Below are positions 14,166-31,067 of a stretch of DNA of 39,816 nucleotides, piece by piece. The notes beneath the pieces were generated by a model. It saw only the letters and a list, made by a program, of their open reading frames with translations, was not told where the DNA came from and made no database searches. The number at the start of each line of letters is the position of its first letter. Within the stretch, counting starts at the first letter, position 1. The stretch is taken from NCBI GenBank assembly GCA_024409055.1, contig JAKSUL010000009.1, positions 1-39,816 of the forward strand, in the 5' to 3' direction. This DNA comes from Bacilli bacterium. GTDB lineage: Bacteria; Bacillota_I; Bacilli_A; RFN20; CAG-826. Both the position numbers and the translations under genes were made by a program.

Positions 14166-15107
14166 TTATTCTTTTCCGCCGCCAACAGTGACGCCTTCGA
14201 TGAAGAACTTCTGGGTCACGATGAAGATGAGGATAAGCGGCACAAGAGCCACCAAAACCGAAGAGCAGAGATAGTTCGGGTTGGCTTTGAATGTTCCTGA
14301 GTATTCCTGAAGGAATATCTGCAAGGTGTAGTGGTGAGGATCGTCGGCCAAATATAGAAGTGGTTTCAAATAGCTGTTATAGCTGGCGACGAAGGCGAAG
14401 ATGAATTGAGCGATGAAGGCCGGGAAGGCTTCAGGGATAATGATCTTCAAATAGGTTTTGAAGGGTGAGAGTCCATCGATTTTAGCGGCTTCGATGACTT
14501 CGTCCGGGATGCTAGTCATATAGCTTCTAAGGAAGAAGATGACCGTGGCGCCGCCAAACATGGCCGGTAGAACGACAGGAAGATAAGATAACTCGCCTTT
14601 GGTCCATCCTAATTGATTAAAGAAGATGAAGGAAGGAACGGTTAAGGTCGCGGCCGGAATCATCATCGTGCAAAGTTGGACGAAGAATAGGGCGTTGCTT
14701 CCTTTAAAGCGAATCTTCGAATAGGCAAATGCGGCCATTCCGGAGAAGAAAAGGGATGAAACGGAAGTGATTATCGCGATAAGGAAGGTGTTTCCAAAGG
14801 CGAATAAAAGCTCAACCGAAATTTCGTCCGGCATCGGCGAATAAGTGAAGAGGTTTTTGAAACCGTCGAAAGACCAGGTTCTTGGCCACCAAATGAATGA
14901 GTTGGTGGATTGTAGATCGATTTGATTGACGAACGATGTGATGAAAATCGTGTAGAAAGGCGAGAGCAAAAACATCGCATACATCATAAGAATCGCGAAG
15001 ATAAGGATTGCCCCCATTATCTTTTTGCTTCTTACGAACTTTTTGGTGGCGATTATTTCCCTTGCTGGTATGCCTTCTTCGATTAGAGGAATTCTTCTGC
15101 TATTCAT
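14166..15107 (-). CDS. Carbohydrate ABC transporter permease (MalG/AraQ family)
   Basis: 313 residues with a cytoplasmic N-terminus (~30 residues) and six predicted membrane helices, the first being 'IMGAILIFAILMMYAMFLL'. The EAA loop that docks to the ATPase reads 'EVIEAAKIDGLSPFKTYLKI'. It belongs to the CUT1 sugar importer subfamily, inner-subunit MalG type. Its start overlaps the end of the partner permease by 8 bases. Together with the binding protein and ATPase it imports an oligosaccharide, presumably the substrate of the GH3, GH2 and SGNH enzymes of the locus. Confidence 0.95.
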   Translation of the reverse strand: MNSRRIPLIEEGIPAREIIATKKFVRSKKIMGAILIFAILMMYAMFLLSPFYTIFITSFVNQIDLQSTNSFIWWPRTWSFDGFKNLFTYSPMPDEISVELLFAFGNTFLIAIITSVSSLFFSGMAAFAYSKIRFKGSNALFFVQLCTMMIPAATLTVPSFIFFNQLGWTKGELSYLPVVLPAMFGGATVIFFLRSYMTSIPDEVIEAAKIDGLSPFKTYLKIIIPEAFPAFIAQFIFAFVASYNSYLKPLLYLADDPHHYTLQIFLQEYSGTFKANPNYLCSSVLVALVPLILIFIVTQKFFIEGVTVGGGKE

Positions 15108-16053
15108 TTACCCATTTCCTCCTCGTTCTGAAGTTGATGAAGGATGCGATGAAGACGATTATGAAGAGCACCCAGCTCATGACGGCGGCGATGCCCATGT
15201 TGTGACCTTCGGTGGCTTCGTAGTAAATGTACCTGACCAAAGTAAGGCCGGCGTTTTGCGGCCCGCCGATGGTGTCGTGGCTATAAATAAGCGCGAACAT
15301 GTTGGCTATATCGAAGGATTGCAAGCCTGCGATAATGCCTGTCATAAGCAAATAGAAGGTGGTGGGGGCGATTGAAGGAAGAGTGATCTTGACGAACTTC
15401 TTCAACGAATTGGCCCCATCGATATCAGCGGCTTCGTATAAAGTCGGATTGACGGCGTTTAAAGCGGCCTTGTACATGACGATACCGTATCCAGGCGCAG
15501 CCCATACGGTGGCGATGATGATCGTCCACCTATAAGCGTCAGCGTCAGAGAACCAGTTAACGCGAGCCCCTTCTCCGGCCAAAGCGACCAAAATGGTGTT
15601 GATGATGCCTCTTTGGGAGTTGAACATCCATTGCCACATCATAGCGGTGGCAACGCTTGAGCAGATGTAGGGGATAAAGAACAAGACAGCGAATAATTTG
15701 GCTCCGATTGGCTTTTTGTGAAGCAAAACGGAGATGAACAAGGAAATGGCAAGAGAAATGAACTGAGCTAATGTCACGAAGAAAGTTACGCCGATTGAAA
15801 GATAGAACTTAGGATCGGCGAACACTTCTTTGAAATTACCGAAATTATTCCAAACCATCGTGCTTAGGTCGGAATTTTCAATGCTGCAGAACTGCAAAGC
15901 AAAAGAGATCATCAAGGGGAAGAAGTTGAAGATCAAATAGGAGAGGAGCGGTATGGACACCGCGATGATGCCGAACCACGTCTCCTTGCTGACTTTCTTC
16001 TTTCTCCTCGGGATGATAAGGTCTTTGCTTACTAAACCTTCGGCGTCGGTCAT
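15100..16053 (-). CDS. Carbohydrate ABC transporter permease (UgpA/MalF family)
   Basis: 317 residues with a basic N-terminal stretch (RRKKKVSKETW) and six membrane helices. The EAA motif is 'LYEAADIDGANSLKKFVKIT'. Periplasmic-type loops are short, as in UgpA/MsmF rather than enterobacterial MalF. It lies 1 base after the binding-protein gene and overlaps the second permease by 8 bases, so the importer subunits are translationally coupled. Confidence 0.95.
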   Translation of the reverse strand: MTDAEGLVSKDLIIPRRKKKVSKETWFGIIAVSIPLLSYLIFNFFPLMISFALQFCSIENSDLSTMVWNNFGNFKEVFADPKFYLSIGVTFFVTLAQFISLAISLFISVLLHKKPIGAKLFAVLFFIPYICSSVATAMMWQWMFNSQRGIINTILVALAGEGARVNWFSDADAYRWTIIIATVWAAPGYGIVMYKAALNAVNPTLYEAADIDGANSLKKFVKITLPSIAPTTFYLLMTGIIAGLQSFDIANMFALIYSHDTIGGPQNAGLTLVRYIYYEATEGHNMGIAAVMSWVLFIIVFIASFINFRTRRKWVNE

Positions 16054-16054
16054 G

Positions 16055-17878
16055 TTATTCCTTTCCGTGGATCTTGTAGGAATAGGTCTTTAGTTTGTTG
16101 TTGACCCTATCTTCGTTTTCAAGGAAGAAAGCGGAGAGAGTTTGTTTTCCGTTACGAACCTTTTGATTGAGGTCGTCGCTCCAAAGAGTGACCCAGTCCT
16201 TGTTTTCCAAGTAAGACCAGTCGCCGATGTCGGAATCGGAGGCGTATTTGGAAATCAAATCGTAGGATCTGAACGGTTTGTTGGCTTGGTTGATGTATTC
16301 TTCGCTTCCAGCGAATTCTTCGTTGGTCGGAGCTCCGTCATTAGCGGCGCACAAAATCTTTTGGGCGTCTTTAGAGCACCAGTACTGCAAGAACTTAAAG
16401 GCGCTTTCCTTGTGAGCGGAGTTGGCCGGGATGGACCAACCGAGGTTCAAAGAAGAAGTGGTGGATTTTCCGACGATGGAAACACCATTATCTTTGACTA
16501 ACTCGCCGGTGTAGACCTCGCCGCCATAAGTTTCTCCGATGACCTTGAGGTTGCCGGATTCGTCGAGAGAGCCTCCGACGTATTCTCTATATTGATACAT
16601 CTTGGCGACGTTGAATTCTTTGCCTTGTTTGGTCATGGCGTCGTTAAGCAAGTTGACCTGCTCGAAGCCTTCGATGACCATGGCGGTGTCGCCAGCGGTG
16701 AAGTAGTTGATCTTGCTGCCGCCGGTGATTTCGTCTTTGGTCGGGGAAACGCCTAAGCCAGTGGTGGTGGCATCGACTTTGATACCCTTTTTGGTGGTCA
16801 AAGAGACGAATCTAGCGAAAGCGTCGTATTGGGATGGCAAGACGTGGAGTTTAGACATGACTTCGGCGAAGGAGTCGTCGTTTTTATGATCATCGACATA
16901 AACCTTGGAGCGGTAGTTGATGATATCGCCCTTTTTATATGTGTCTTCTCCGATGGTGACCTGGTCGATTGCGACGTAATTCTCCAAATCGGAGCCGAGG
17001 GTGAAGACGTATTTGCCGGTCTCTGGATCGAGATTCATGCAATCGCCGCCGACGGACCATCCGTGCGGGAACCAGTATTCGGTTAAAAGACCGTATTTGC
17101 TCGGAGAGGTCGCGGTCCATTCTTTGGTGAAGTATTTGGAGAGGTATTCGAGCTCGTCCCAGTTCATGGAAATCTCGTTGTTGAAGACTTTGTAGACCGC
17201 AGTTCCGCCTCTACTTTCGGAGGCGACTAATCCTTCGGCTGGGGCAACGCTATATTCGGCATAGCCGTGCGGGGCAAAAGCGGTGCCGTGCTCAGCGTTA
17301 TATGCGGCAAGCTTATCTTCCGGAACGGAGATGATGTTGATTTGGTTCTGTTTGAAGAAGCCTTCGTTGTAATAAAGGAGAGAAACGTCGGCAACCTGCG
17401 GCAAGGCATAAAGGTTTTCGCCTTCGCCACACCATTTGGTTGTTTTGTTGACCCTGAAACGGTTTAAGTTTGTGGCGGAGAAGTCTTCCAAATTCAAGAC
17501 CTTCGAACCATCGCTTTTCTTGGTGATGAGGGTCTCGTTGGCGAACAACTCGTCCAAGTTGGTGAAAAGATTCTTGTCGACATACGTCTTGGTCTTGTCG
17601 TCGTAAGCTCCAAAGATATCGACGTTGGTCGGGGATTTTTCTAAGCTGGTGGATTCGGTGTCGCCGTATTTCCTACCCTTCAAGACGAGGGAAACTCTGA
17701 CGCCGTCAGATTGTCCCTGGCCATCGTTATAGGCCCTAACAGCCTGCTTGACGGCCTCTCCGTTATAAGTGCTTTCGGCGGCCCAGAAAATGACTTTGTC
17801 GCGGCCATCGTTGCTGCCACCGCCGCAGGAGGCCATGGTTCCTGTCAATAAGAGGGCGAATAGAAATTGTTTTTTCAT
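16055..17878 (-). CDS. Extracellular sugar-binding lipoprotein of the ABC importer
   Basis: 607 residues. The lipoprotein signal (MKKQFLFALLLTGTMASC, Cys18) is followed by a family 1 extracellular solute-binding protein: 'DKVIFWAAESTYNGEAVKQA', 'NVDIFGAYDDKT' and the typical late segment 'SLNLGWSIPANSAHKESAFK' with 'FLQYWCSKDAQKIL'. It is clearly longer than the usual ~420 residues. Extra material lies between ~190 and 360, which includes aromatic-rich stretches that could widen the binding cleft for a branched or decorated oligosaccharide (inference). AAGGAG lies 10 bases before ATG. The gene is between the ATPase and the permeases in the importer operon. Confidence 0.92.
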   Translation of the reverse strand: MKKQFLFALLLTGTMASCGGGSNDGRDKVIFWAAESTYNGEAVKQAVRAYNDGQGQSDGVRVSLVLKGRKYGDTESTSLEKSPTNVDIFGAYDDKTKTYVDKNLFTNLDELFANETLITKKSDGSKVLNLEDFSATNLNRFRVNKTTKWCGEGENLYALPQVADVSLLYYNEGFFKQNQINIISVPEDKLAAYNAEHGTAFAPHGYAEYSVAPAEGLVASESRGGTAVYKVFNNEISMNWDELEYLSKYFTKEWTATSPSKYGLLTEYWFPHGWSVGGDCMNLDPETGKYVFTLGSDLENYVAIDQVTIGEDTYKKGDIINYRSKVYVDDHKNDDSFAEVMSKLHVLPSQYDAFARFVSLTTKKGIKVDATTTGLGVSPTKDEITGGSKINYFTAGDTAMVIEGFEQVNLLNDAMTKQGKEFNVAKMYQYREYVGGSLDESGNLKVIGETYGGEVYTGELVKDNGVSIVGKSTTSSLNLGWSIPANSAHKESAFKFLQYWCSKDAQKILCAANDGAPTNEEFAGSEEYINQANKPFRSYDLISKYASDSDIGDWSYLENKDWVTLWSDDLNQKVRNGKQTLSAFFLENEDRVNNKLKTYSYKIHGKE

Positions 17879-17892
17879 TGGATGTGTTCTCC

Positions 17893-19428
17893 TTAAAATT
17901 TGTTCTCTTCTTTGCCGTCTTTTATAACGGACTTAGCTTCCATGATGGAAAGCGTTGTTTCTTTATCGAATAGGTGGATGCCTTCCGGCTGGAGCGAGAT
18001 CGATACCTCATCGCCGACTTTGCTCGACACGCGGTAAGGAACTTTGATGTTGATGTTCTTGTAGCTTGAAGAGGCGTCTTTATCGCCCTCTAAGGTCAAT
18101 TGGGTCTCGTTTCCGAGGTTTTCGACGTCGAGCACCTTGAGGTGTATGCCTTCTTTGGATGAGAGGATGTTTTCGCCCCTAACGCCTAAGACGACGTCGT
18201 GCGTATTTCCGTCTAGATACGAATCGGCGATCTTTCTCATCGACTGAAGCGAGAATTGCATCTTCTCGCCGTCCTCGAACACGAATTCGACGTGCCTTGC
18301 TTCTTTCTTCATCTTTACGTGGAAGAAGTTCATTTGCGGGGTTCCGATGAAACCGGCAACGAAGATGTTGTTCGGGAAATCGAAGAGGTTGGTTGGCGTA
18401 TCGACCTGTTGGATGACGCCTTTATCCATAACGACGATCCTGTCGCCCATCGTCATAGCCTCGATTTGGTCGTGGGTGACGTAGATGAAGGTTGTTTTGA
18501 GTTCTTGGTGTAGACGCGTGATTTCGCTTCTCATGGATACCCTTAATTTAGCGTCCAAGTTGGATAAGGGCTCATCGAGCAAGAAGACTTCTGGATTCCT
18601 GACCAAGGCTCTTCCTAAGGCGACACGCTGTCTTTGTCCGCCTGACATTTCCCTTGGCTTTCTCTTAAGGAGTTCGGTGATGCCGAGGACTTCCGCGGCC
18701 GCCATCGTTTTGCTGTTGATTTCCTCTTTAGGCAAATGGACCTTTTTGGTTTTGGCGATCGAAGGAGTGGCGGTCAAGGTATTGATCTGAGCTTCCTTTT
18801 CTTTTATCGCCTCGTCGCAAACGGCGTTTCCGTTTTTCTTATACTCGGCGATCAGCTTTTTAATCTCGCCTTTGATGGATTTGGCTTTTTCGGCGTTAGC
18901 TTTGTATTCTGGATCTTTTTTGCCGGTGCCTAATTTGCTCTCAATTTCTTTTTCTTCTTTGAGCAACTCTTGGATCTTTTCGTCGAGGTAATAGGTGTCT
19001 TTAATCAACTTGATTTCGTATTTGAGCTGCTTAATTGCCTTTTTATCGACTACCTTAATTTCGTTTCCGTCTTTATCTAGAACCGGAACTTCGTTCAATT
19101 TGTTACGCAAACCGAAGGCGATGTTCTCGTAAGCGCTCATGTGAGGATAAAGGGCGTAATTTTGGAAAACCATCGCGATGTTTCTATCTTTCGCGGGGAT
19201 GTCGTTGACTAAACGGTCTCCTATGTAAAGGTCGCCTCTAGTTATTTCTTCTAGACCGGCGATCATTCTGAGAGTGGTGGATTTTCCGCATCCAGACGGA
19301 CCGACAAAGACGACGAATTCGCCATCTTTGATATCCAAATTAAAATTGGTGACGGCTTGATAAGATGAATTCTTTTTGTCGAAAGAAGAATAAATCTTAA
19401 AAATGTTTTTAAGTTTAAGGTTTGCCAT
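17893..19428 (-). CDS. ugpC: ABC transporter ATPase, UgpC/MsmK type, with long coiled-coil-like insertion
   Basis: 511 residues, against ~370 for normal UgpC/MsmK. Motifs are all present: Walker A 'GPSGCGKST' (43-51), Q-loop Gln89 in '[12 protein letters not shown]', signature '[15 protein letters not shown]' (261-), Walker B '[16 protein letters not shown]' (281-), H-loop His319, and the C-terminal MalK regulatory OB domain (~355-500, with '[10 protein letters not shown]' and '[16 protein letters not shown]'). Between '[11 protein letters not shown]' and '[14 protein letters not shown]' lies an extra segment of ~130 residues (110-238) rich in Lys/Glu and predicted helical, placed in the helical subdomain that contacts the permeases. 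Mycoplasma UgpC homologues are known to be similarly long. AGAGG lies 10 bases before ATG. It is the first gene of the importer sub-operon. Confidence 0.93.
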
Positions 19429-19536: not shown

Positions 19537-20157
19537 CTACTTATTTTTATAAAAATGTTCTTCGATTTTTATGCAGATGTAGTGGTAAATCGGAAGGTGA
19601 TATTCCTGAACCCTGTAGGTTTCCGTAGATGGAGCTTTGATCGTGATGTCGCTATATTGAGAGCACTTCGAATCTTTGCCTCCTGTAAAGCAAATCGTTT
19701 TGAGCCCGATTGCTTTTGCGACTTTGACTGCATTGACGATGTTTTTGGAATTGCCGGAAGTGGAAAGCCCAATGAAAACGTCGTTTTTGCTGCTTGCCCC
19801 ATATCCTAAGACCAATTGGGCGTATACCATAGTCGGGTCAACGTCGTTTGAGAAAGCCGAGATGATCGCGTTAGAGGAAGTTAAGTCGACCGCCGGCAAA
19901 GAACCTTGAAGGTTTTTGATCAAATATTCCCCGTCCTCGTACTTGGATAAAGACTGTTCGATTTCTTCCGGTAGTTCTCTTTTCAAAATGAAGGATTTCA
20001 TCAATTCCCCGACGAGGGGAGATGAATCGGAGGCGCTTCCGCCGTTACCGGCAATAACCAATTTTCCGCCATTGGAATAGCAATCGATGATCGCGTCTAT
20101 GGCGTCGTCGATGTCCTTTTTTATCGGGAGCAATTCGGGATAGTTTTCAAAAAGCAT
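19537..20157 (-). CDS. SIS-domain phosphosugar isomerase (GmhA/DiaA-like)
   Basis: 206 residues with the single SIS domain of the GmhA family: 'GGKLVIAGNGGSASDSS' (phosphosugar loop), 'STSGNSKNIVNAVKVAK' and 'TYRVQEYHLPIYHYICIKIE' near the C-terminus, where GmhA carries its catalytic Glu/His. It is likely a cytoplasmic aldose/ketose isomerase acting on the phosphosugar made by the adjacent ROK kinase. True sedoheptulose-7-phosphate isomerase activity is possible, but there are no heptose biosynthesis genes here. GGAGG lies inside the end of the ROK gene, one base away, so the two are coupled. Confidence 0.85.
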   Translation of the reverse strand: MLFENYPELLPIKKDIDDAIDAIIDCYSNGGKLVIAGNGGSASDSSPLVGELMKSFILKRELPEEIEQSLSKYEDGEYLIKNLQGSLPAVDLTSSNAIISAFSNDVDPTMVYAQLVLGYGASSKNDVFIGLSTSGNSKNIVNAVKVAKAIGLKTICFTGGKDSKCSQYSDITIKAPSTETYRVQEYHLPIYHYICIKIEEHFYKNK

Positions 20158-20158
20158 C

Positions 20159-21046
20159 TTATTTGTCCTCCATTAAGGATGAGTATTCGTCGATCTTTTC
20201 TTGAAGCGAGCAGGGGAGGATCTTGCATGAAGATAGATTCATCGGAAGCGATTCTTTCCTCACGGTTTTCATCATCTTATCCTGCAAAACGTCAATGACT
20301 CTTGGGTAAATTCCCCCAATGGCTATGCATTCGGGATTGAACAAATCGACGCAGGTAGAAACAACTTGGCCTAGGGACGTGGCCACAATCGAGACGATTT
20401 TCTTCGCTTTTTCGTCTCCTTTTCTAGCCAAGTCGAAGATCTCCTTTGCTGACTTCCTCGTCTCAAAATAGCTTAGAGATAAATCAGAGATTCCTCCGCC
20501 TGAAGCAAACGATTCGCTGGAACCTTTTTTGCCGTTTCTGGCGAAATGTCCTTGGCTTTTGATGCGGACATGACCGATTTCTCCGGCTCCGGCATTAGTG
20601 CCTGAATATAAACGCCCGTTTAGTATCAAGCCACATCCCAACCCCGTTCCAAAGGTTATGTAGACAAAGTTCTTCAAGCCTTTTCCGACTCCGTATTTAT
20701 ATTCCGCCAAAGCGCAGGCGTCCGCGTCATTAAGAAGCGAAACGGGCTTCGAATACCTATCATTAAGGAGCTTCACAATCGGGAAGTTATCGAATCCAGG
20801 AAGGTTTGCGGGCTTGTTGATTGTGCCACCAATAGGATCTAGCGGGCCTCCGCAAATAACGGAAATTGAGTCGAAGGTGAAATTACGAGAATCGATGGCC
20901 TCGACGAGCTTTTCATAAGTTTCCGAAGCGGATTCCGGATTTGTTTTTATGTTGATTTTTTCGATGATTTTGATTTCGTTTTCATCGATTTCCGCGAACG
21001 TTACGGCACTTTTGGTTCCACCGATAGCTATTCCTATTCTATGCAT
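20159..21046 (-). CDS. ROK-family sugar kinase lacking the zinc-binding cysteines
   Basis: 295 residues. The N-terminal phosphate loop reads 'IGIAIGGTKSAV', where most ROK kinases have D or E-x-G-G-T-K; here the acidic residue is Ala7. Catalytic Asp lies in 'SLLNDADACALAEYKYG' and the second phosphate motif in 'VYITFGTGLGCGLI'. The substrate-binding 'GAGEIGHV' is present. The usual ROK zinc site (Cys-rich C-x-C-G-x2-G-C) is replaced by 'SQGHFARNGKKGSSESFASG' with no cysteine. It should phosphorylate a hexose or hexosamine released by the GH2/GH3 enzymes; which one is unknown. AAGGAGG precedes the ATG within the last bases of the GH2 fusion gene (13-bp overlap). Confidence 0.88.
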   Translation of the reverse strand: MHRIGIAIGGTKSAVTFAEIDENEIKIIEKINIKTNPESASETYEKLVEAIDSRNFTFDSISVICGGPLDPIGGTINKPANLPGFDNFPIVKLLNDRYSKPVSLLNDADACALAEYKYGVGKGLKNFVYITFGTGLGCGLILNGRLYSGTNAGAGEIGHVRIKSQGHFARNGKKGSSESFASGGGISDLSLSYFETRKSAKEIFDLARKGDEKAKKIVSIVATSLGQVVSTCVDLFNPECIAIGGIYPRVIDVLQDKMMKTVRKESLPMNLSSCKILPCSLQEKIDEYSSLMEDK

Positions 21047-23904
21047 TTGAACCTGCCTCCTTCATATCCATAAAGAGGTCCGACAAGAGATAAGTACTGA
21101 TTTAGGGACGCTCCTTTTATGTTCAAGACGTAGTGGTTAAGACGTTCTTCTTTATCGTCTATCGCGTATTTGACTTCGTAATAAGTCTGATCAGATGTTA
21201 AGGCACACAAGAAGGAATGGACGACCTTATGCGGTTTGACTTTCTTCGAGCCTTTTGCAATAACGACGTTATGGGTTTTATCCACGACTTCGTATTTGAA
21301 CAAGACTTCCTCTTCGCTGGAGTTTACCAAGGCAATCTTAAGGTCTTCGCCTTCTTCAAATATGGTGGCGAGCTGAGGGTTTGAGGCCCTCTTGATGAAT
21401 TCATAGGCCAATTTCTTCGTGAAATCGTAGTCCATGATCGCGTCCGAAATTTGCCACCATCCATCGATTAGGTTCCACCAGATTATTCCGCTTGTGTTTT
21501 TTCTAGCCCTTGTTTTCTCGATGAAATATTTCATGGCCTCGGCTTGGGAAATTTGGCTGGCCAAAGAGAAGTAATGCAAATTCGATATATCGTCTTCGAA
21601 TAATGTTTTAATCTGATCGGACATCAGCTTGATCCTAAAAGCGTAGGGCGAAGAATAATCGTCTCTAACCGAAGTTGCGTGAGCCAAATATTCTTTATTC
21701 GGCAAGCCGTCTTCTTTAAAAATCGGCCAGGTATCTTTGATGAATTTGCTTAAAGTGCGGGGCGAGGGGCAACCGTGATATCCGGTTTCCGAGATGAAAT
21801 AAGGTTCGCTTTTGGCGTAATATTCGCCTCTAAAGTAATCTCTAGGACCCCATAAATGGTCTTCGGGGAGCAAATTAAAGTGACGATACCCTAAAGAATC
21901 TTCGTATGGAGAACTCGGCATATAAGGGATCGTTTGTTTGTTTTTCTTCAAGGCCTTTGGTATGGCGTTTCTAGTTATGGAGTTATCGTTAGGGTTGATC
22001 TTATCTCCAGCCCACTGACAGGCGACGTCGCATTCGTTATCCCCGGCCCAAAGGCAAATGGAGGGGTGATGCGACATCTTTTTGACAATCGAATCGGCCT
22101 CTTGGTATATCTTCTTCTCAAATTCACGGGTTCTAGGATAAATCGCGCATCCCATCATGAAATCCTGCCACACGAAAATTCCGTGTTCATCGCACCATGA
22201 ATAGAACTCGTCGCATTCATAAACTCCGCCGCCCCAGACCCTGATCGCATTGCAGTTGAGGTCATAAACGTGGTGGAGAGCCTTATACATTCTTTCTTTG
22301 TCGATGTGTTTTAAGGCGTCTATCGGTACCCAGTTGGTTCCTAATAGATATACGGGTTCCCCGTTGATGATGAATTGGAAGGTCCCACCCTTATGAATGA
22401 AAGAACTCCTCTTCAATTTGACGTTTCTAAAGCCGACTCTAAAGCATTTGCTGATGGAGGAATCGCCGTCATCTAGACTTATCACCAAAGTGTATAGATT
22501 GGCTTTTCCGTGGTTTCTAATGTTCCACGGAAGTGGGCTGGCGACTTCGAATTTGTTTTCTTTCTCGAGCTCTTTTTCGAAGTGGTATTTTGATTCGCCT
22601 GAAAACAAGTCGATTTTGATGTTCTTGTATCTAGAAACGTCGTCGAAGTGACAACTCACATAGCCGTTTTCACAATCGTAATCGACGTTTAGACGCATCT
22701 TGTCGAATACGCATTCTTCTTCGGATAGATATACCTTTTTCCAGATGCCACCTAATGGTGCGCGAAGGAAAATATCCCATCCAAACGAAGAGGCGCATTT
22801 CCTGATATTAAGAGACTCGTAATTGTATTTATTGGCAAAGCAATAATCGGGAAGCGGGATCTTTTTGCCTTCGCTAACCGCTGGAAGGATATGGACTGTA
22901 AGCTCATTTTCTTCGGCAAGGTTATCCACGATAAAATCGTGTTGAAGGAACATGTTGTCGGTCGTTCCGATAAGTTTTCCGTTTAGATAAACCTCAGAGA
23001 TGGTGTCGATACCCTTAAATGAGAGAACTCCACTTTTCTTGGTGGATTTAAATCTCTTTGAATACCATTGGTGACAGTCTTCGTATTTTTCGTAGTCCCA
23101 GGTATTTGTGGATAAATAAGGATGGCCTTCGATTCCGTTTTTCGACAGTATCTCTTCCATACAAACGGGGAGGTCGACAAGAAAATCCTGACTCCTGAAC
23201 CCGTCTTTTTCGTAATGGAAAGTCCAATCCAAAGATAAGTCGGACGTGCTGAGTATGCTGAGCTTATTCAAGATCCTCTTGGCGATGATCGAGTGCCCTA
23301 AGGCGTTGGGATGAAGACCATCTTTTGTGTATTTTTCTTTGTCTTCGGCTTTTGAAGGATCGATATCGAGTTCGTGATATAGATCGATGCAGTCGAATCC
23401 ATAGATAGAGGCGAAATAGGAAATGAAATTGGCATAGTTTTCAAGCTTATAAGACAATTCGCCTTTGCTCACCATCGGCTTAAGCCTAACGTTAAGTTCT
23501 CTTTTCATCGGCGTGATGAAAATTACCGGCTTATTGCGGTAGTGCTTTTTGATCTTCTCGCAGAGGGTTCTCAATGAGCCGAGGAAGGTGTGGGGAGTAT
23601 TGTCGTCTAACGTTCCGAAAGGGGCGTCGCCATGACCGTAGTCATTGGTTCCGCCGAACACGATCAAAACGTCGGCGTGATGATCCATCTTGTCGAATCT
23701 TTGGAGGAAATCCAAATCATATTGGGGATTTTCCAAATTCGGAGAGATAGATGGGGCGATCGAAGTGCCGCCGACCCCGTAGTTTCTGACTTCATAGCCA
23801 AGCTCTTTTTCGAGTAAGCCGCAAAAGCCTTCTTCGACGGGGAGATAGGCGGCCTCAGTGATCGAATCGCCCAATACGTTGATTACTATGCCGTTTTCTT
23901 TCAT
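21034..23904 (-). CDS. SGNH hydrolase-GH2 fusion (esterase plus beta-mannosidase-like glycosidase)
   Basis: 956 residues, no signal peptide. Residues 1-215 form a complete SGNH/GDSL hydrolase: 'NVLGDSITEAAY' (Ser14), 'NYGVGGTS' (Gly block), 'VFGGTNDYG' (Asn87), 'KDGLHPNALGH' (Asp195/His198). From ~222 a full GH2 protein begins with the family's N-terminal sandwich (DLSLDWTFHYEKDGF, ..., 'YSKRFKSTKKSGVLSFKGID', 'VYLNGKLIG'), the Ig-like middle domain, and the TIM barrel from ~500 ('LLGTNWVPIDA', 'CNAIRVWGGGVYECDEFY', 'SICLWAGDNECD' with acid/base Glu624, 'YFISETGYHG' with nucleophile Glu706). The NAIRVWGGG and W-x-G-x-NE patterns are those of GH2 beta-mannosidases. One polypeptide can thus de-esterify and then trim a glycan in the cytoplasm. 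It starts 1 base into the stop of the CBM9/LamG lipoprotein gene. Confidence 0.9.
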   Translation of the reverse strand: MKENGIVINVLGDSITEAAYLPVEEGFCGLLEKELGYEVRNYGVGGTSIAPSISPNLENPQYDLDFLQRFDKMDHHADVLIVFGGTNDYGHGDAPFGTLDDNTPHTFLGSLRTLCEKIKKHYRNKPVIFITPMKRELNVRLKPMVSKGELSYKLENYANFISYFASIYGFDCIDLYHELDIDPSKAEDKEKYTKDGLHPNALGHSIIAKRILNKLSILSTSDLSLDWTFHYEKDGFRSQDFLVDLPVCMEEILSKNGIEGHPYLSTNTWDYEKYEDCHQWYSKRFKSTKKSGVLSFKGIDTISEVYLNGKLIGTTDNMFLQHDFIVDNLAEENELTVHILPAVSEGKKIPLPDYCFANKYNYESLNIRKCASSFGWDIFLRAPLGGIWKKVYLSEEECVFDKMRLNVDYDCENGYVSCHFDDVSRYKNIKIDLFSGESKYHFEKELEKENKFEVASPLPWNIRNHGKANLYTLVISLDDGDSSISKCFRVGFRNVKLKRSSFIHKGGTFQFIINGEPVYLLGTNWVPIDALKHIDKERMYKALHHVYDLNCNAIRVWGGGVYECDEFYSWCDEHGIFVWQDFMMGCAIYPRTREFEKKIYQEADSIVKKMSHHPSICLWAGDNECDVACQWAGDKINPNDNSITRNAIPKALKKNKQTIPYMPSSPYEDSLGYRHFNLLPEDHLWGPRDYFRGEYYAKSEPYFISETGYHGCPSPRTLSKFIKDTWPIFKEDGLPNKEYLAHATSVRDDYSSPYAFRIKLMSDQIKTLFEDDISNLHYFSLASQISQAEAMKYFIEKTRARKNTSGIIWWNLIDGWWQISDAIMDYDFTKKLAYEFIKRASNPQLATIFEEGEDLKIALVNSSEEEVLFKYEVVDKTHNVVIAKGSKKVKPHKVVHSFLCALTSDQTYYEVKYAIDDKEERLNHYVLNIKGASLNQYLSLVGPLYGYEGGRFKCIE

Positions 23905-26447
23905 TATGCGATCTTTCTTTGAGCCTCAGTTCCGGTGAGGATCTTGATGCCCGAAACGAATAAGCCGGTGCCGATGTTTTGGCCGAAGACGCCGTAGTAA
24001 TTTGATGTTGTGGCGGCGCTTTCCCAGCTATTCCATGTGCTTCTTTCAAGAACTAACACGTCGTTTAGGTAGACCTTCACAATGTTTCCTTCTCTATAGA
24101 AGCCAAGCTTTGTCGGAGTGGTGGAAAGATCGATGTTGGTGATCGGGGTGTTTCCTTCTTCGACATTGGAGCCTGAAGAATTGACGGTCCTAAGCCTGAC
24201 CTGGGTGACCAAGCTATTGGCGGAAGGGGCGTAAAGGCAAACGCGGAGCCTTCTGGCGGCGGTGTTGTTAGCTTCATCGCCGACGATGAAACCGAAGTCA
24301 GACCAGGCGTTATTGACGTTCAATTTGAAGGTACCCTCCATGTAGACCGCTTCATCGGTGATGAGGCCTTTGTCTTTGTTAGTGAACCAAGAGGCATATC
24401 CTCCATTGCTGGTGTGGGAAACGGATCCGGAGACTGGGTCGACCTTGCCGAATACGCCTAAGCCGGCGTGGGTATTCTCGCTGGAAAGGTAATAAGAAGA
24501 ATTCTTTTCTCCTTCGAAGTGAGTGGTGGCCTCTTCTCCTTTGAAGTGGCTGATTTGGGTGAAGGTATTGTCGGATTTCCAGCCGGTCAAACCAAGACGG
24601 TAATCGCCGGTGCGGGAGGAAAGGGTCGGGATGGCTTTTTCAAAGGCGAGGGCATCGTTAACTAAAACGCTGACGACTCCGTCTTTTACGTAAACCGACA
24701 TCTTGTTTTGAGCACCTAAAGATAAGGACGAAGCCTTTTGAAGGTTCATGGAGCTATCCCACGTGATGATGTCGTTTTTGAGGAAATAGCAATCGAGGTA
24801 AGTCGTTTTCTTGTCGGAGGTTTCGGTGTTGTTATACCTCAGCAAGAAAGCCAAACGATAGTAATCGTTATCGAGCGGATAGGTCACCATGACGCCAGAC
24901 CTAGAGTCGCTATAGTTATAAGTGTCGTGCGAAGTGATCGTGGCTTCGATGAAACCGGCTTCGTTAAATGTCTCGGCCAAATTGACGATGGATCCCAAAT
25001 TCTTGGTGCAATTGACCGAAACAACGCCTTCTTCGAAAGAGTCGGCGTAATTGTTGGACAAGTGCTCGTCGTAAATGAATTCGTTGTTCTTCGTCTTCAT
25101 GTATTCGTCGAGATTCTCGGTGACGTAGTAGTATTCGCTAAAGGTGGCTCCGGTGAACCAAGAGACCAAGCCTAAATAGATGTCTGTGTCTTCCTTCAAG
25201 AATTCCATGTCGGATTTGACGGTGACTAGAACGTCGTTTAAATAGGTGTAGATAGAGGCGCCTTTTCTATAGATGCCTAAGGTGAATTCGCCTTTTTCGA
25301 TTTGCGAACCCATCATGACTTTGGTTGATTTATCCCAGATGTTTTTGGTTCCAGAGGAGTTCCTGACCGAGGGAAGAGTCAACTGATCTTTGATGACGTA
25401 AGTCTCACCGGCGTTTTTATCGAGCTCAAGGAAGTTGTAGGCTTGGGAATAATAGTTTTCCGCGGTCGCTTTGGTCTTGACCATGATGCCGATACGTGGG
25501 TCATCGCCTCTATAGAAGTCGTTGATTTTGACCTTGGCGGACCAATAGACGTCTTTGAAGGTCGGACTATCTTTCAAGAACAAGGTCAACTGGCCGTTTT
25601 TCCTGAACGTGACTTCGGGGAAATCACCGTTATCTTTGCTAACGTCGATGCCAGAACTATGCGGATTTTCAAAATTGGCGCCTTCAACGCTTGGGACGTA
25701 TCCGTTTTTCTTGAAAAGAGGATAGCTGCCCAAGACGGACGGATTGACTTTTCCGGTGTTCATATCGAGCATTTCCCAGAAGTAGTGGTTATCGAATTCG
25801 ACGGCAGAATTAAGCCTGATCATAGCCGTTCCAACGCCGATTTCCTCGACCTTGGCGTCTTCCATATTTAATAACGTGTACGGGAGATAGGCTTCAACGG
25901 AATATCCGCCGTTTGGATTGACCTTACCGGCTGAATAAGCACCTGCTGCAGGAAGCCTTTCATAAGCTCCGCCGGAGCCGTTGTTATATCTTCTTCTAAC
26001 GAGCAATGCTCCGTCTGCGCTCACCGTTACTTCGTAAATATGCCCATAAGGCGTATCGGCATCCGGAGAGCAGATATAAAACTCATAGCCACTTCTAGAG
26101 AAAATGGTTGGGGAGTTCAAATTGACGATTTGGTCATCTGTTTCGGCATAAAGGAATAGACCGTGTTCACCATATCCAACGTATGTTTTTGACTCGCATT
26201 CTGGAGTATCGGCGAAAGCCTTGTACTTAGCCTGGTCCCTATTGACGTCTTTGGAGACGGAAACATAAGGATTGGCGACGTAGAATTCGGCCTCTCTTTT
26301 CGCGTCGAGTTTGATGCCTTCGATGACTTTGGCATCGCTAGCATAGTGATCGACTTCGTAACCTGGGTTTTCGGCTTTTGGCTCACCTGCGCATCCTGTG
26401 AGGACGGTTAAGGAAGCGGCAACTAAAAGTAAATTTTTCTTTTTCAT
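23904..26447 (-). CDS. Lipoprotein with CBM9-like domain and three LamG-like lectin domains
   Basis: 847 residues. Lipoprotein signal with acceptor in 'LTVLTGCAGEP' (Cys19). Residues ~30-250 resemble carbohydrate-binding family 9/DOMON domains ('GLFLYAETDDQIVN', 'YEFYICSPDADTPYG', 'IYEVTVSADGALL', 'GGYSVEAYLPYTLL'). Three tandem concanavalin-A-like units follow (~260-445, 465-640, 650-840), each ending in a similar hairpin: 'YTYLNDVLVTV', 'VSVLVNDALAFE', 'VKVYLNDVLVLE'. No hydrolase motif is visible, so it is probably a surface glycan-capture protein feeding the neighbouring GH43-like lipoprotein and the ABC importer. AGGAG lies 8 bases before ATG, and its stop overlaps the GH2 fusion start by one base. 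Confidence 0.85.
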   Translation of the reverse strand: MKKKNLLLVAASLTVLTGCAGEPKAENPGYEVDHYASDAKVIEGIKLDAKREAEFYVANPYVSVSKDVNRDQAKYKAFADTPECESKTYVGYGEHGLFLYAETDDQIVNLNSPTIFSRSGYEFYICSPDADTPYGHIYEVTVSADGALLVRRRYNNGSGGAYERLPAAGAYSAGKVNPNGGYSVEAYLPYTLLNMEDAKVEEIGVGTAMIRLNSAVEFDNHYFWEMLDMNTGKVNPSVLGSYPLFKKNGYVPSVEGANFENPHSSGIDVSKDNGDFPEVTFRKNGQLTLFLKDSPTFKDVYWSAKVKINDFYRGDDPRIGIMVKTKATAENYYSQAYNFLELDKNAGETYVIKDQLTLPSVRNSSGTKNIWDKSTKVMMGSQIEKGEFTLGIYRKGASIYTYLNDVLVTVKSDMEFLKEDTDIYLGLVSWFTGATFSEYYYVTENLDEYMKTKNNEFIYDEHLSNNYADSFEEGVVSVNCTKNLGSIVNLAETFNEAGFIEATITSHDTYNYSDSRSGVMVTYPLDNDYYRLAFLLRYNNTETSDKKTTYLDCYFLKNDIITWDSSMNLQKASSLSLGAQNKMSVYVKDGVVSVLVNDALAFEKAIPTLSSRTGDYRLGLTGWKSDNTFTQISHFKGEEATTHFEGEKNSSYYLSSENTHAGLGVFGKVDPVSGSVSHTSNGGYASWFTNKDKGLITDEAVYMEGTFKLNVNNAWSDFGFIVGDEANNTAARRLRVCLYAPSANSLVTQVRLRTVNSSGSNVEEGNTPITNIDLSTTPTKLGFYREGNIVKVYLNDVLVLERSTWNSWESAATTSNYYGVFGQNIGTGLFVSGIKILTGTEAQRKIA

Positions 26448-26450
26448 GGC

Positions 26451-28454
26451 TTACTCTCCTAAAACGGCGATTTCGCCGACGGCGACTCCGCCTTTCTTTG
26501 AAACGACTACTTCGATTTCGTTTACATTAAGCTCTTCGAATTCGGCGATGGCGGCGGCGCATTGGTTGACGAAGCCGTTCTTTTCGTCGATGTCATTCGG
26601 GTTGACCTTAACATCCGACAGCGTGTAGACGATCGGCTGTCCGTCTTTCATGGAGTGGAGTCTGATCGTATCGACCTTGTCGAAAGCGGTGCTCAAATTG
26701 ATTGAGTCATAGACCAAAACCGATTTGACTTTCTTATAGGTGTTGAACTTCAAATCCAAAGTGATCTTTTCTTTTCCCGGATTGAATTCCTTGACGAAAG
26801 AATTGTAGGAGTAGACCGGAACCATTCCGTCGACTAGATAGGAAACATCCTCGGCGATATCGGAGGCGATGATTTTGGCTTCGTTAGCGATATTGGTATA
26901 AGTGGCGTTAGGACCGATTTGCGGTTGGACGGTGCTAGTTGGGCCGTTGCAATAGATGACGGGTTTATTGTCGTTGTTCTTCGTGAAGAAGCAGCGGTCC
27001 GCCATGATCTTCCTTTGACCCTTACCTTGGGAGACGATCCAGTGGCCATGGTAGATGATTATCAATTCGCCACCGGCTCTTACGAAGGAGTGGTGACCGC
27101 ATCCAGAGGAGCTGCGCTTATCGGAGATCGACAAGACCAATCCGCCTTCACTCCTCTCCAATTTGGTGAAATCACCTAAAGGTGAAGAAGATAAAGCTGT
27201 TCCGACCGTGTATTTAGGCGTGTTGCAGTTATCGACGGAGAAGGTCAAGAAATAGGTTCCATCTTCATAGATCATTTCCGGTCCTTCGTTGATGGTGTTG
27301 TCGGATGGCTCATAATCGACGCCTTCATCGCCGTTAACCGTTTTCTTGTTAACGGTGGTGAGCCTCTTCAAGGTGTTCCATTCAGGATCATCGGTCCAAG
27401 AAGCGCCCATCTTCATGCCGACGACGAAGTTGGTGTCGCCAGAGTAGGAGTGCCTTCTAACGAAATAGAGGTATTTGTCGCCTGTGACCGGATCCACGAA
27501 AGGATTGCAGTCGATTGTGGCAAAGCCTTCTTCTCCGTCGAATAAGACGTTTTCCTTAGCGTTTCCGTATTCGAATAAGTCTTCGGCCGAGATGAAAGGA
27601 TCTGGCTCTGAAAGGGCTCTTCTCGTCGCGCTTTCTTCGGTGTTCGTGTACTGGATGAACGGCCCATTTGGCGAGGCGGAGACGGCGACGCCGACATTGA
27701 AGTCGTTGATGACGTTTTCGATATGGATATACGAGGAGCGGAGCCTTGTGGCGTAATCTCTAGCTAATTCGGTCTTTTGGGCTTCCGTTTCAAGGGTGAT
27801 GATCGCGTTATCATAGGCCTTGATGTATTTTTCGATGGTTTTCCTAAAGGGCTGATATTTTTCCGGAAGGACTTCGACTCTGAAATCGTTGATAATCGCC
27901 TCACATTGGGAGAAGGTGAGTAAATAAATCGAGGAACGGATGGAGTTATATTCGTTCTTATCGGCGTGAGTCAAAAATTGAGGGTAGTAACTTCCGACCA
28001 TCTTGTTGTATTTGTCGTCGGCCGAATAGAACATGTAATAAACGCCCTTCGAAGAACCTAATCCATATTGGGACTGGTCGGCTTCGCCATCAAAGATGAC
28101 TTCCGGGGCCCAGAAACTAGTTTGGGAAAAAGATGTCTCGGTCGGTTCGAAAGCGGGGCCAACGGTCTCGTAATCGATGAAATTCTTGGTTCTATAGGCG
28201 GCGAATCCAAGGCAGCCCATCTCGAGATCGGTCGTCGGGTAGATGTAGAAATATCCGTAGTTTGGATCATTGACGTCACTGATGTATAAAGATCCGGGGT
28301 CAGCACCATAGACTTTGGTGTCGTTCCTGAAGAAGACATCTGTGTCGTAATCTTTTTCTAGCTGATCATAATAGCCATAAGGGTTAACGCTTTGGGATCC
28401 GCAGCTAGATAAGGATAGAAGCGTTAGGATTAGAAGAGATTTGCCTTTTTTCAT
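26451..28454 (-). CDS. GH43-like lipoprotein with helical insertion and C-terminal sandwich
   Basis: 667 residues. Lipobox 'LLSLSSCGS' (Cys18). Residues ~45-490 are a five-bladed-propeller protein of the GH43 clan: 'VYGADPGSLYI' (catalytic base Asp52), 'FWAPEVIFDG', 'ATIDCNPFVDPVTGDKYLYF' (pKa-modulating Asp315), 'TINEGPEMIYEDGTYFLTFS' (acid Glu390), 'GCGHHSFVRAGGELIIIYHG'. The propeller is interrupted at ~153-253 by ~100 residues of predicted alpha helix ('SQCEAIINDFRVEVLPEKY', 'TEAQKTELARDYATRL'). Residues ~520-667 form a beta-sandwich like F5/8-type carbohydrate-binding modules. It probably removes arabinose/xylose-type side groups or cuts a polysaccharide outside the cell. AGGAG precedes ATG; its start overlaps the epimerase stop by 4 bases. 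Confidence 0.88.
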   Translation of the reverse strand: MKKGKSLLILTLLSLSSCGSQSVNPYGYYDQLEKDYDTDVFFRNDTKVYGADPGSLYISDVNDPNYGYFYIYPTTDLEMGCLGFAAYRTKNFIDYETVGPAFEPTETSFSQTSFWAPEVIFDGEADQSQYGLGSSKGVYYMFYSADDKYNKMVGSYYPQFLTHADKNEYNSIRSSIYLLTFSQCEAIINDFRVEVLPEKYQPFRKTIEKYIKAYDNAIITLETEAQKTELARDYATRLRSSYIHIENVINDFNVGVAVSASPNGPFIQYTNTEESATRRALSEPDPFISAEDLFEYGNAKENVLFDGEEGFATIDCNPFVDPVTGDKYLYFVRRHSYSGDTNFVVGMKMGASWTDDPEWNTLKRLTTVNKKTVNGDEGVDYEPSDNTINEGPEMIYEDGTYFLTFSVDNCNTPKYTVGTALSSSPLGDFTKLERSEGGLVLSISDKRSSSGCGHHSFVRAGGELIIIYHGHWIVSQGKGQRKIMADRCFFTKNNDNKPVIYCNGPTSTVQPQIGPNATYTNIANEAKIIASDIAEDVSYLVDGMVPVYSYNSFVKEFNPGKEKITLDLKFNTYKKVKSVLVYDSINLSTAFDKVDTIRLHSMKDGQPIVYTLSDVKVNPNDIDEKNGFVNQCAAAIAEFEELNVNEIEVVVSKKGGVAVGEIAVLGE

Positions 28455-29326
28455 TTTTGTTCTCCTTTTAGAAGCGACTTAGCGATATCAATTGATAGTT
28501 TCGCCAAGTCATAAACGAGTGTGGTGTCGTATTTTCCGACTGTGTTATATATCGCGAGTTCCATATTGAAGACCCCGTTATAACCGATTTTTTCCAAGGA
28601 TCCGATGACCTTTCGCCAATCGATTGAGCCGAAACCCATGGGCAAATGGGAGTCCTTGTTCTTAAGGTTGTCGTTGATGTGGAGGACCTTTAGCTTGTCC
28701 CCGAATTTTTCGATCGTCTCATCTATAGGAAGATCGAGGATATTGACGTGTCCGGTGTCTACGCAGACGGCGTAGCAATCTTCGCCGAGAGCGTCGATGA
28801 AGGAGAGGATTTCTTCAGGAGTGGAGATCAAGGTTTTCCTCATGATTCCGTGTTCGTCGTTTTCCCAAAGGGTTTCTAAGCATCCGGTGATGCCGTATTT
28901 ACGTAATGTCGGAGCAAGCGTTTTGAAGATCTGATAATTGAGCTTGAAGTTCTTTTCACGGTCTTCTTCCTTTATTGAGAACAAACCGAAATGGAACACC
29001 ATGTACTTAGCACCCAAGATGGAGGTGGCTTCTATTTCCTTTTCAAGTTCTTTGATAAGCCAATCGTATTCCGCTCTTTCCAAAGGGAAGAATGCGTGCG
29101 TTTGATTGACGATGAGCCCGTTTTCGTCGCAGGTTTTTTTGTATTCCTTGGCCCACGATTTGTATTCGTCCTTCGCAAAATAAGGGCTCGGCTTATTCCA
29201 ATCGTCGCACAATGAAACATCAAGGCAATCGACGCCTGTCTTCTTTAGATTAGGCAGATACGATTTGAAATCCTTTTTGAAGGCCTTTTCAAATCCGCCG
29301 ATATTGATTCCTATCTTGTTATTCAT
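28451..29326 (-). CDS. Sugar phosphate isomerase/epimerase (xylose-isomerase-like TIM barrel)
   Basis: 291 residues from ATG 29326. A longer in-frame start at 29431 would add 35 residues lying over the aldolase gene with no family resemblance, so it is rejected. The protein is an AP-endonuclease-2/xylose-isomerase-like barrel: 'NNKIGINIGGFEKAF', 'KYMVFHFGLF', 'GITGCLETLWEN' (metal Glu), 'AVCVDTGHVNIL' (Asp/His), 'LKVLHINDN' (His), 'GSIDWRKVIGSLEKIGYNGV' and 'FNMELAIY' (Glu). These are the metal ligands of IolE/IolI/tagatose-epimerase-type enzymes. It probably epimerises or isomerises an intermediate between the dehydrogenase and the aldolase. The gene overlaps the aldolase gene by 8 bases. 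Confidence 0.88.
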   Translation of the reverse strand: MNNKIGINIGGFEKAFKKDFKSYLPNLKKTGVDCLDVSLCDDWNKPSPYFAKDEYKSWAKEYKKTCDENGLIVNQTHAFFPLERAEYDWLIKELEKEIEATSILGAKYMVFHFGLFSIKEEDREKNFKLNYQIFKTLAPTLRKYGITGCLETLWENDEHGIMRKTLISTPEEILSFIDALGEDCYAVCVDTGHVNILDLPIDETIEKFGDKLKVLHINDNLKNKDSHLPMGFGSIDWRKVIGSLEKIGYNGVFNMELAIYNTVGKYDTTLVYDLAKLSIDIAKSLLKGEQK

Positions 29327-29969
29327 TTTGGTCAGTGAATTCCTTGCATAAAGCGGTGATCTTGGCAAAGTCCTTATTCGCGATGGCTTCTTTGTCCAAA
29401 ATCGCCGATTGAAGTCCGGCGCCGAAAGCACCGGCTTTCATCCAAGATTTGCAGTTTTCTTTCGTGAATCCTCCAAACAACATCAACTTGGCTTTCGGGA
29501 GGATGTTGGAGATTTCGCTGATGTATTTCTCGCTCACGCAGTGGCCTGGGAAGATTTTCACGAAATCTGCTCCGTTAGCGGCAGCGGTTTGAACTTCGCT
29601 TGGAGAGTAAGCGCCCGGTATGCAAACAAAGCCTTTCCTAAGGCCGTATTTGAGGACCTTTAAGTCAAGGTGAGGAGAAACCAAAATGGTGGCACCTGCC
29701 TTTTTGGCTTTTTTGATTTGGTCTTTGCTGCAGACGGTTCCGACGCCGATCGCCATTTTGTCGCCGACTTCTTTCACGAGCATTTCGACCATTTCAAAAG
29801 TCTCTTGCTGGGTTTCGGGGGCCTTTTGCGATAGCGGCAATTCCATACACCTGATTCCGCCTTCATAGAAGGCTTTGGCTAATTCGACGATGTTTTCTTT
29901 GCCGATTCCTCTAACGACTGCGATGTAGCGGTCTTTATTCAAGAATGAAATGATTTGCTGTTTTTCCAT
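29319..29969 (-). CDS. KDPG/KHG-type 2-keto-3-deoxy-phosphosugar aldolase
   Basis: 216 residues, class I aldolase of the Eda/KDPG family. Landmarks are Arg20 in 'YIAVVRGIG', Glu43 in 'IRCMELPLSQ', 'MAIGVGTVCSKDQIKKAKKA' (phosphate-side loop), 'VSPHLD' and the Schiff-base Lys138 in 'GADFVKIFPG'. It splits a 2-keto-3-deoxy-6-phospho acid into pyruvate and an aldehyde such as glyceraldehyde 3-phosphate. No partner dehydratase or KDG kinase of the usual type lies in the window, so the true substrate is uncertain. It starts 3 bases after the dehydrogenase stop and overlaps the epimerase gene by 8 bases. Confidence 0.9.
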   Translation of the reverse strand: MEKQQIISFLNKDRYIAVVRGIGKENIVELAKAFYEGGIRCMELPLSQKAPETQQETFEMVEMLVKEVGDKMAIGVGTVCSKDQIKKAKKAGATILVSPHLDLKVLKYGLRKGFVCIPGAYSPSEVQTAAANGADFVKIFPGHCVSEKYISEISNILPKAKLMLFGGFTKENCKSWMKAGAFGAGLQSAILDKEAIANKDFAKITALCKEFTDQNE

Positions 29970-29972
29970 AAT

Positions 29973-31067
29973 TTATCTAAGAATCGTCTTAAGTGATTCT
30001 TTTGCTAACTCCCTTCTTTCTTCTCCTTCGTTGATGAGGACGCTGCTGACGAGCAATTTCGCATAGAAATCCTCGAAGAACGTTTCACCCATCTTGATTC
30101 CCATATCGCTGACGCAGGTCGGGAATCCCTCCGATCTAAGCTTTTCTGCGAATTTCTTGGAGCCTTCGTGGTCTCCGTTGAAATAAAGCTGAGCGATGAG
30201 CCCGGTGGCGACTAATTCGCCATGGATATAGCCCTTGGATTCATGAGGGAAGAAGAACCTGATGAATTCGTAGTATTTATGAGCGATTGCGCATTGTTTG
30301 GATCCGTTTACCAAGTTGGAACATAGGCCCGCGAGGACTGTTGACACATAGACGATGTCTTCTAAACCTTTATTCGGCTTTCCTTCCTCGATTGCCTTTT
30401 CGGCCTCTTTCAAGGATTTGTTGATCGCGTCGGCGATGAAGTCGGCGAGGAGAACAGCGGTTCTCATGCCGATGTATTCGCTGTAGTCATATGGTGAAGA
30501 GACCCTTTGCTTAAGCTCGATGTTTTTGGCAAGAGCGTCATAAGCGCCGGCTCTTAAGAGCCTCACTGGCTGATTGGCCATTATGTCCATATCGACGATG
30601 ACGAGAGAAACCGGGTTCTTAAGCTGCGTTCCGCCGAAAGTAGTGCCGTCTTTGTTGTAGCAGACGCTTAGCGGAGTAAGGCAAGCGCAGGTGGCGGAAG
30701 AAGTCGGGATGGTTATGACCGGCAACTTGGCGTAGGAAGCGACGAGTTTGGAGAAGTCCATGATTCGCCCTCCGCCAACGCCGATGATGCAGTCGTGATC
30801 GCCGATTGATTCGGCAAACTCAATTGCACCTTCGTGCGAGCAAGGTCCTTCAAATATCACCCAGTCGTATTTAACGCCGTTTTCGTTAAGCGTTGCTTCG
30901 AGGTCTTTCCTAACGATTGGAGTCGCTATTTCGCCTCCGATTATCAAAGGGTTTTTTCCGATGGCGGCTATTTCATTTCCGCAGGTCTTGATCAAACCTG
31001 GATATTGCAGAAAACGTCCGCAACCGTATTTATAAGCTTTGTCGTTTTTTAACACTGTCTTTTCCAT
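29973..31067 (-). CDS. Iron-containing alcohol dehydrogenase, glycerol-dehydrogenase-like
   Basis: 364 residues. Residues ~1-160 are the NAD(P) domain with 'KYGCGRFLQYPG', 'NPLIIGGEIATPIV' and the dinucleotide motif 'CIIGVGGGRIMDFSKLVA'. 'ITIPTSSATCACLTPLSVCY' and 'AGAYDALAKNIELK' (Asp177) match GldA-like members, and metal-binding His residues occur in 'CAIAHKYYEFI' and 'KGYIHGELVA'. It reduces or oxidises a polyol or sugar-type alcohol. In this locus it probably converts the transported sugar or its product rather than glycerol. GAGGG lies 8 bases before the ATG, inside the end of the upstream SGNH gene (38-bp overlap). Confidence 0.9.
   Translation of the reverse strand: MEKTVLKNDKAYKYGCGRFLQYPGLIKTCGNEIAAIGKNPLIIGGEIATPIVRKDLEATLNENGVKYDWVIFEGPCSHEGAIEFAESIGDHDCIIGVGGGRIMDFSKLVASYAKLPVITIPTSSATCACLTPLSVCYNKDGTTFGGTQLKNPVSLVIVDMDIMANQPVRLLRAGAYDALAKNIELKQRVSSPYDYSEYIGMRTAVLLADFIADAINKSLKEAEKAIEEGKPNKGLEDIVYVSTVLAGLCSNLVNGSKQCAIAHKYYEFIRFFFPHESKGYIHGELVATGLIAQLYFNGDHEGSKKFAEKLRSEGFPTCVSDMGIKMGETFFEDFYAKLLVSSVLINEGEERRELAKESLKTILR

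Follow-up and report, generated by a model that had tools for sequence, protein, structure and literature searches.

Why would an ester hydrolase and a glycosidase be joined in one polypeptide, and do the two act on the same sugar? The question is raised by a gene at positions 21034-23904 of a contig from a gut-type Bacilli bacterium (JAKSUL010000009.1, assembly GCA_024409055.1), which an earlier note had read as an SGNH esterase fused in frame to a β-mannosidase-like enzyme of glycoside hydrolase family 2 (GH2). The window analyzed here is the whole stretch of 39,816 nucleotides, the entire contig, and belongs to a 1.78-Mb genome that is 97% complete. The answer that we favor, with a probability of about 0.5, is that the protein works in the cytosol as both a deacylase and an exo-β-glycosidase, on imported oligosaccharides that are acylated and probably β-mannosyl. 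The fusion would probably unblock and cut acetylated imported sugars in one place.

The gene is a single uninterrupted open reading frame (ORF) on the minus strand, with an ATG start and 956 amino acids (aa). The coordinates given in the earlier note were exact, the strand having been left unstated, and its account of two complete halves with a continuous junction, free of stops and frameshifts, was borne out. In the protein, Pfam detected Lipase_GDSL_2 at aa 10-205 (3e-20), Glyco_hydro_2_N2 at 240-389 (3.7e-27), Glyco_hydro_2 at 442-493 and Glyco_hydro_2_C at 510-630. The parts of the gene are:

23260-23904, minus strand: SGNH/GDSL hydrolase half (aa 1-215) with Ser14, Asn87, Asp195 and His198; from Pfam Lipase_GDSL_2, an alignment with 16 relatives, and VIA-align (Z 21.4 to 3dc7)
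23245-23259, minus strand: junction (aa 216-220), with practically no linker; from the ends of stand-alone SGNH proteins and the starts of stand-alone GH2 proteins
21037-23244, minus strand: GH2 half (aa 221-956), β-mannosidase-type, with W557, acid/base Glu624 and nucleophile Glu706; from Pfam, PDB matches (9nfe, then β-mannosidases) and conservation

Neither half is truncated, as the SGNH half ends where stand-alone SGNH proteins end, the GH2 half starts where stand-alone GH2 proteins start, and nothing is duplicated. G+C content is alike along the whole gene. The junction codons are open in the fusion frame alone, with a stop at about codon 211-212 in both other frames. This pattern, together with the finding of the fusion in a single contig and in no other genome of the order, would fit the idea that a single assembly or sequencing indel joined adjacent SGNH and GH2 genes. 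However, no start with a well-placed Shine-Dalgarno sequence for a separate GH2 gene was found at the junction. The only in-frame starts nearby are TTG212, with AGAGG merely 3 bases upstream, and TTG225, which has no Shine-Dalgarno sequence; a GGAG-like site is present ahead of most other genes of the cluster. Because the junction lacks a Shine-Dalgarno-backed GH2 start, such a split-gene error is very unlikely, and the native ends of both halves, as well as the fusion of a GH2-clade relative and of a ROK-SIS pair in this family (see below), also speak against it. The SGNH-GH2 fusion is real and is an apparently unreported domain combination built of familiar parts.

The architecture search for SGNH plus GH2 that the earlier note had proposed was run on about 1,000 genomes (279 of the order, a class sample of 395 and a phylum sample of 392), by a pattern scan of GTDB genome contigs and on viral contigs, and it returned no second fusion; no paper on such a fusion was found in the open-access literature. 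Members of the same GH2 clade are encoded at about 80 loci; almost all are proteins of 750-800 residues and none has a fused SGNH domain, although a few of these proteins begin at contig ends, where the N-terminal architecture cannot be judged. One of them, L149:8901-11864 (genome G571), is fused in frame to a different N-terminal enzyme, a histidine phosphatase (RHGE...AHGG), and the gene directly downstream encodes a GH130, of which no second copy was found in G571. Another genome (G587, locus L150) has a stand-alone GH2 gene with an SGNH gene of a different, unrelated type immediately after it. The GH2 proteins of the window, G571, G587, L151 and L070 form one clade (support 1.0).

The GH2 half has the sugar-binding, Ig-like and TIM-barrel domains of its family, an NE acid/base motif and a Glu nucleophile. 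Each of the 77 aligned clade members has both Glu624 and Glu706, whose counterparts in the alignment with CapGH2b are E465 and E553, the positions mutated in the PDB entries of that protein. CapGH2b (9nfe series, "redox-regulated glycoside hydrolase" of GH2) is the best match in both sequence (phmmer 3e-116) and fold (VIA-align Z 30.6, root-mean-square deviation 3.0, 703 residues aligned, 29% identity), with β-mannosidases next. It is the only solved member of the clade that we found, and L125 and L126, about 70% identical to it, also fall in the clade. CapGH2b is listed as GH2 alone, whereas the window enzyme adds the N-terminal SGNH domain, has no signal peptide and carries Val556 in place of a clade-common Cys, the window's own group having Val or Ile there; Cys551, Cys571 and Cys586 are retained. 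No paper on the 9nfe entries or on the substrate and specificity of CapGH2b was found in the open-access literature.

In the β-mannosidase subfamilies GH2_13 and GH2_17, a loop-2 Trp replaces the His near C2/C3 (PMC12243196). This Trp is present in the window enzyme (W557 in RVWGG), in 77/77 clade members and in 27/27 classical GH2 proteins, in agreement with the β-mannosidase-like signature mentioned in the earlier note. Classical GH2 β-mannosidases (BtMan2A 2je8 and Dictyoglomus 5n6u; GH2_13/GH2_17) share the fold (Z 26-27), the NE motif and the loop-2 Trp, but are only about 20-25% identical to the window GH2, and Arg688, Trp809 and Asn811 are specific to its clade (R688 and W809 invariant, N811 nearly so). 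We regard the GH2 half as β-mannosidase-type, in a clade distinct from the classical enzymes, with β-mannoside hydrolysis as its predicted activity.

In the SGNH half, whose SGNH domain begins at aa 7, blocks I, II, III and V were found with their Ser, Gly, Asn and Asp/His residues: GDSIT (Ser14), GVGGT, GGTND (Asn87) and DGLHP (Asp195 and His198), all invariant or nearly so. The four catalytic residues are invariant across the 16 aligned relatives, which are small and for the most part cytoplasmic-looking proteins. That this half might be a catalytically dead structural or binding module, for which nothing speaks beyond the caution of the earlier note, appears extremely improbable, since the catalytic residues are all intact and the GGTNDYGHGDAP motif is retained.

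Among named relatives of the SGNH half, the closest (about 40% identity) is encoded on plasmid pTS1 of Treponema saccharophilum. Its gene is flanked by a LacI regulator gene and a GH26 gene; next come ABC permeases, an epimerase of the AGE family (mannobiose-epimerase type), two GH130 genes and a phosphomannose isomerase, and a second GH26 gene is found upstream; the GH26 proteins are mannanases, and this is a standard β-mannan locus. In G525, a stand-alone relative is directly followed by a phosphomannose isomerase. Three further relatives (L153, L154 and L155) adjoin an α-L-fucosidase (GH29), in L154 together with fucose isomerase, class II aldolase and FGGY kinase genes and in L153 and L155 with neighbors that look alike, and one adjoins an apiosidase-like enzyme. 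The clade is therefore not mannose-specific; it looks like a group of general intracellular sugar deacylases that partner glycosidases, with mannan as one setting.

The CE2 and CE17 mannan esterases of Roseburia and Faecalibacterium are intracellular, and the Axe2 acetyl-xylooligosaccharide esterase of Geobacillus (3w7v/4jhl) is intracellular and xylan-directed. Axe2 is a small SGNH protein (SGNH-profile E 4e-9) that is not fused, and its match is far weaker than those of 7bxd and 3dc7. The profile match of the SGNH half to 6hfz, which we take to be the Roseburia CE17, was weak. CE17 enzymes combine SGNH with CBM35, but Pfam finds no CBM35 in the window protein and the SGNH domain is followed by GH2; likewise, the N-terminal β-sheet domain that precedes SGNH in CE2 is absent. 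CE2 and CE17 are paired acetyl esterases of mannan loci in these Bacillota and act on imported manno-oligosaccharides (PMC13276840), but they are separate proteins of other esterase families, and the window SGNH has neither CBM35 nor a CE2-type second domain.

The fusion gene lies in a cluster of sugar-utilization genes:

11400-12389, minus strand: second, cytoplasmic SGNH hydrolase
12394-14160, minus strand: GH3 glycosidase without signal peptide
14166-16053, minus strand: two ATP-binding cassette (ABC) permeases
16055-17878, minus strand: extracellular solute-binding lipoprotein
17893-19428, minus strand: MalK-type ABC ATPase of an oligosaccharide importer
19537-20157, minus strand: SIS-domain (GmhA-like) sugar-phosphate isomerase, a conserved partner, with the GmhA catalytic pair (Glu51 and His187) conserved
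20159-21046, minus strand: ROK sugar kinase, a conserved partner of the GH2 clade, whose first bases overlap the 3' end of the fusion gene
23904-26447, minus strand: lipoprotein of 847 aa that belongs to no known family, immediately upstream of the fusion gene
26451-28454, minus strand: GH43 lipoprotein
28451-31067, minus strand: sugar-catabolic trio of an epimerase/isomerase-like TIM barrel, a KDPG (2-keto-3-deoxy-6-phosphogluconate)-type aldolase and a glycerol-dehydrogenase-like iron alcohol dehydrogenase (Fe-ADH)
31030-32097, minus strand: third SGNH hydrolase (GxDLY plus Lipase_GDSL_3)

Among the loci of the GH2 clade, ROK was found at +1 in 16 and SIS at +2 in 13, in the same order as in the window. 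The GH2-ROK-SIS group crosses phylum borders, occurring in Bacilli, Clostridia and Bacteroidales (L073, L081, L084, L092, L109, L119, L131 and others); the Clostridia relatives L073 and L081 have the ROK and SIS pair beside or near GH2, and the Bacteroides copies often come with an MFS transporter and GH78. No published description of this group was found. The closest relatives of the SIS partner are phosphoheptose isomerases, and the GmhA catalytic Glu and His are invariant in the SIS proteins of the GH2-clade loci. In the related genome G580, ROK and SIS are fused (L154:15154-16692, 512 aa), near the fucose locus with the stand-alone SGNH relative. Taken together, the conserved order, the Glu/His pair and this ROK-SIS fusion make it most probable that phosphorylation of the released sugar is followed by its isomerization to a ketose phosphate. 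The usual zinc-binding cysteines are missing from the ROK kinase of the window; its relatives have a GPVGYG-K-GSFEGF version in common, from which the window copy diverges further. Absence of phosphomannose isomerase was also considered as an argument for the role of the SIS protein and was rejected, as the genome has a (type I) phosphomannose isomerase catalytic domain.

Mannose is the best fit for the released sugar. A minor rival is that GH2 frees another manno-configured sugar, e.g. D-glycero-D-manno-heptose, which ROK would convert to the 7-phosphate and SIS to sedoheptulose 7-phosphate. The kinship of the SIS protein to phosphoheptose isomerases with its catalytic pair, the separate type I phosphomannose isomerase domain in the genome and the pocket residues that differ from classical β-mannosidases all agree with this, but a GmhA-like sequence does not fix the substrate, and the GH130 neighbors and the mannan-locus SGNH favor mannose; we consider a heptose quite unlikely.

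In the proposed bifunctional pathway, acylated oligosaccharides would enter through the neighboring ABC importer (solute-binding protein, two permeases and MalK-type ATPase). The N-terminal SGNH domain would strip the ester, an acetyl group in all likelihood, after which GH2 at the C terminus would remove the terminal β-linked sugar, most likely manno-configured. The freed sugar would be phosphorylated by the ROK kinase and converted by the SIS isomerase to a ketose phosphate that enters glycolysis. The fusion would provide equal amounts of both enzymes and place deacylation beside deglycosylation. A cytosolic location is indicated by the lack of a signal peptide in the fusion protein, as in the GH3 and second SGNH proteins and unlike the neighboring GH43 and 847-aa lipoproteins. 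In favor of this pathway are the intact catalytic residues of both halves, the histidine phosphatase-GH2 fusion beside GH130 and the independent abutment of SGNH and GH2 in L150. It is also supported by the proximity of GH2 to CapGH2b and then to β-mannosidases, with the β-mannosidase Trp, by the conserved GH2-ROK-SIS order with the invariant SIS Glu/His pair, and by the position of the pTS1 relative among GH26, GH130, AGE and phosphomannose isomerase genes. The fusion, the intact active sites, the operon and the conserved gene order are observed; we infer acetyl as the ester, mannose as the sugar and a common oligosaccharide as the target of both domains. That deacylation precedes release on the same residue, the one that the earlier note took to be blocked by the ester, is an attractive hypothesis.

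Several observations weigh against this interpretation. The SGNH relatives also have fucosidase and apiosidase-like neighbors, and the acetyl-mannose suggested in the earlier note gains some support from the mannan-locus and phosphomannose isomerase neighbors. In the tree, the GH2 clade stands apart from classical β-mannosidases (support 0.974, against classical paralogues), the window GH2 has L380 and W817 (DGWP loop) at near-invariant Pro positions, and the genome already encodes a classical GH2 beside GH130. The cluster's GH43, GH3 and aldolase genes are no pointer to mannan, and no published activity was found for a member of the SGNH or GH2 clade. An AlphaFold2 model of the fusion (predicted local distance difference test 73.7, predicted template modeling score 0.75) yielded no usable inter-domain geometry; it was of medium quality because the input alignment placed single-domain rows poorly, with SGNH rows partly misplaced. 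Finally, just ~5/80 GH2-clade loci have any SGNH gene within 3 genes, and the SGNH-GH2 pairing is therefore occasional; a general SGNH association of the clade was rejected.

These data bear on the possibility that both halves are active but the ester is on a different residue, with the fusion serving co-expression and proximity and GH2 needing no prior deacylation. The occurrence of the SGNH clade with many unrelated glycosidases (GH29, GH26 and apiosidase-like), the lack of a nearby SGNH gene in most GH2 relatives and the three further SGNH hydrolases of the window are consistent with it, but the linkerless fusion and the independent histidine phosphatase-GH2 fusion hint at action near this GH2, and we hold this alternative to be possible but somewhat doubtful. 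More speculatively, and in our view unlikely, the GH2 clade may, within this Bacilli family, repeatedly gain N-terminal "decapping" hydrolases, SGNH here and histidine phosphatase in G571, that take acyl or phosphate off the same terminal manno-configured sugar and feed a dedicated, undescribed ROK-SIS pathway.

If the favored interpretation is true, the protein offers a bifunctional enzyme, already assembled, for acetylated β-mannosidic oligosaccharides, and an uncharacterized, widely distributed GH2 clade is tied to a conserved kinase-isomerase pair, which makes the substrate of the clade directly testable. The surprise is limited, as esterase-glycosidase bifunctional enzymes are known in principle and only this domain combination is new.

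Four SGNH hydrolases of different types lie in one 25-kb stretch (11400-12389, 21034-23904, 31030-32097 and 34871-36364), which suggests that the target glycan is heavily acylated. Another sugar in the whole glycan, perhaps an acidic one, is implied by the upstream genes for the aldolase, Fe-ADH and epimerase. At 28451-29969, the epimerase-like and KDPG-type aldolase ORFs overlap by >100 bases, and the GTG start of the epimerase-like ORF at 29431 is probably too far upstream. In the MalK-type protein (511 aa), the match to the ATPase domain is split (27-130 and from ~228), which points to an insertion of ~100 residues, and its homologues in L153-L155 are similarly long.

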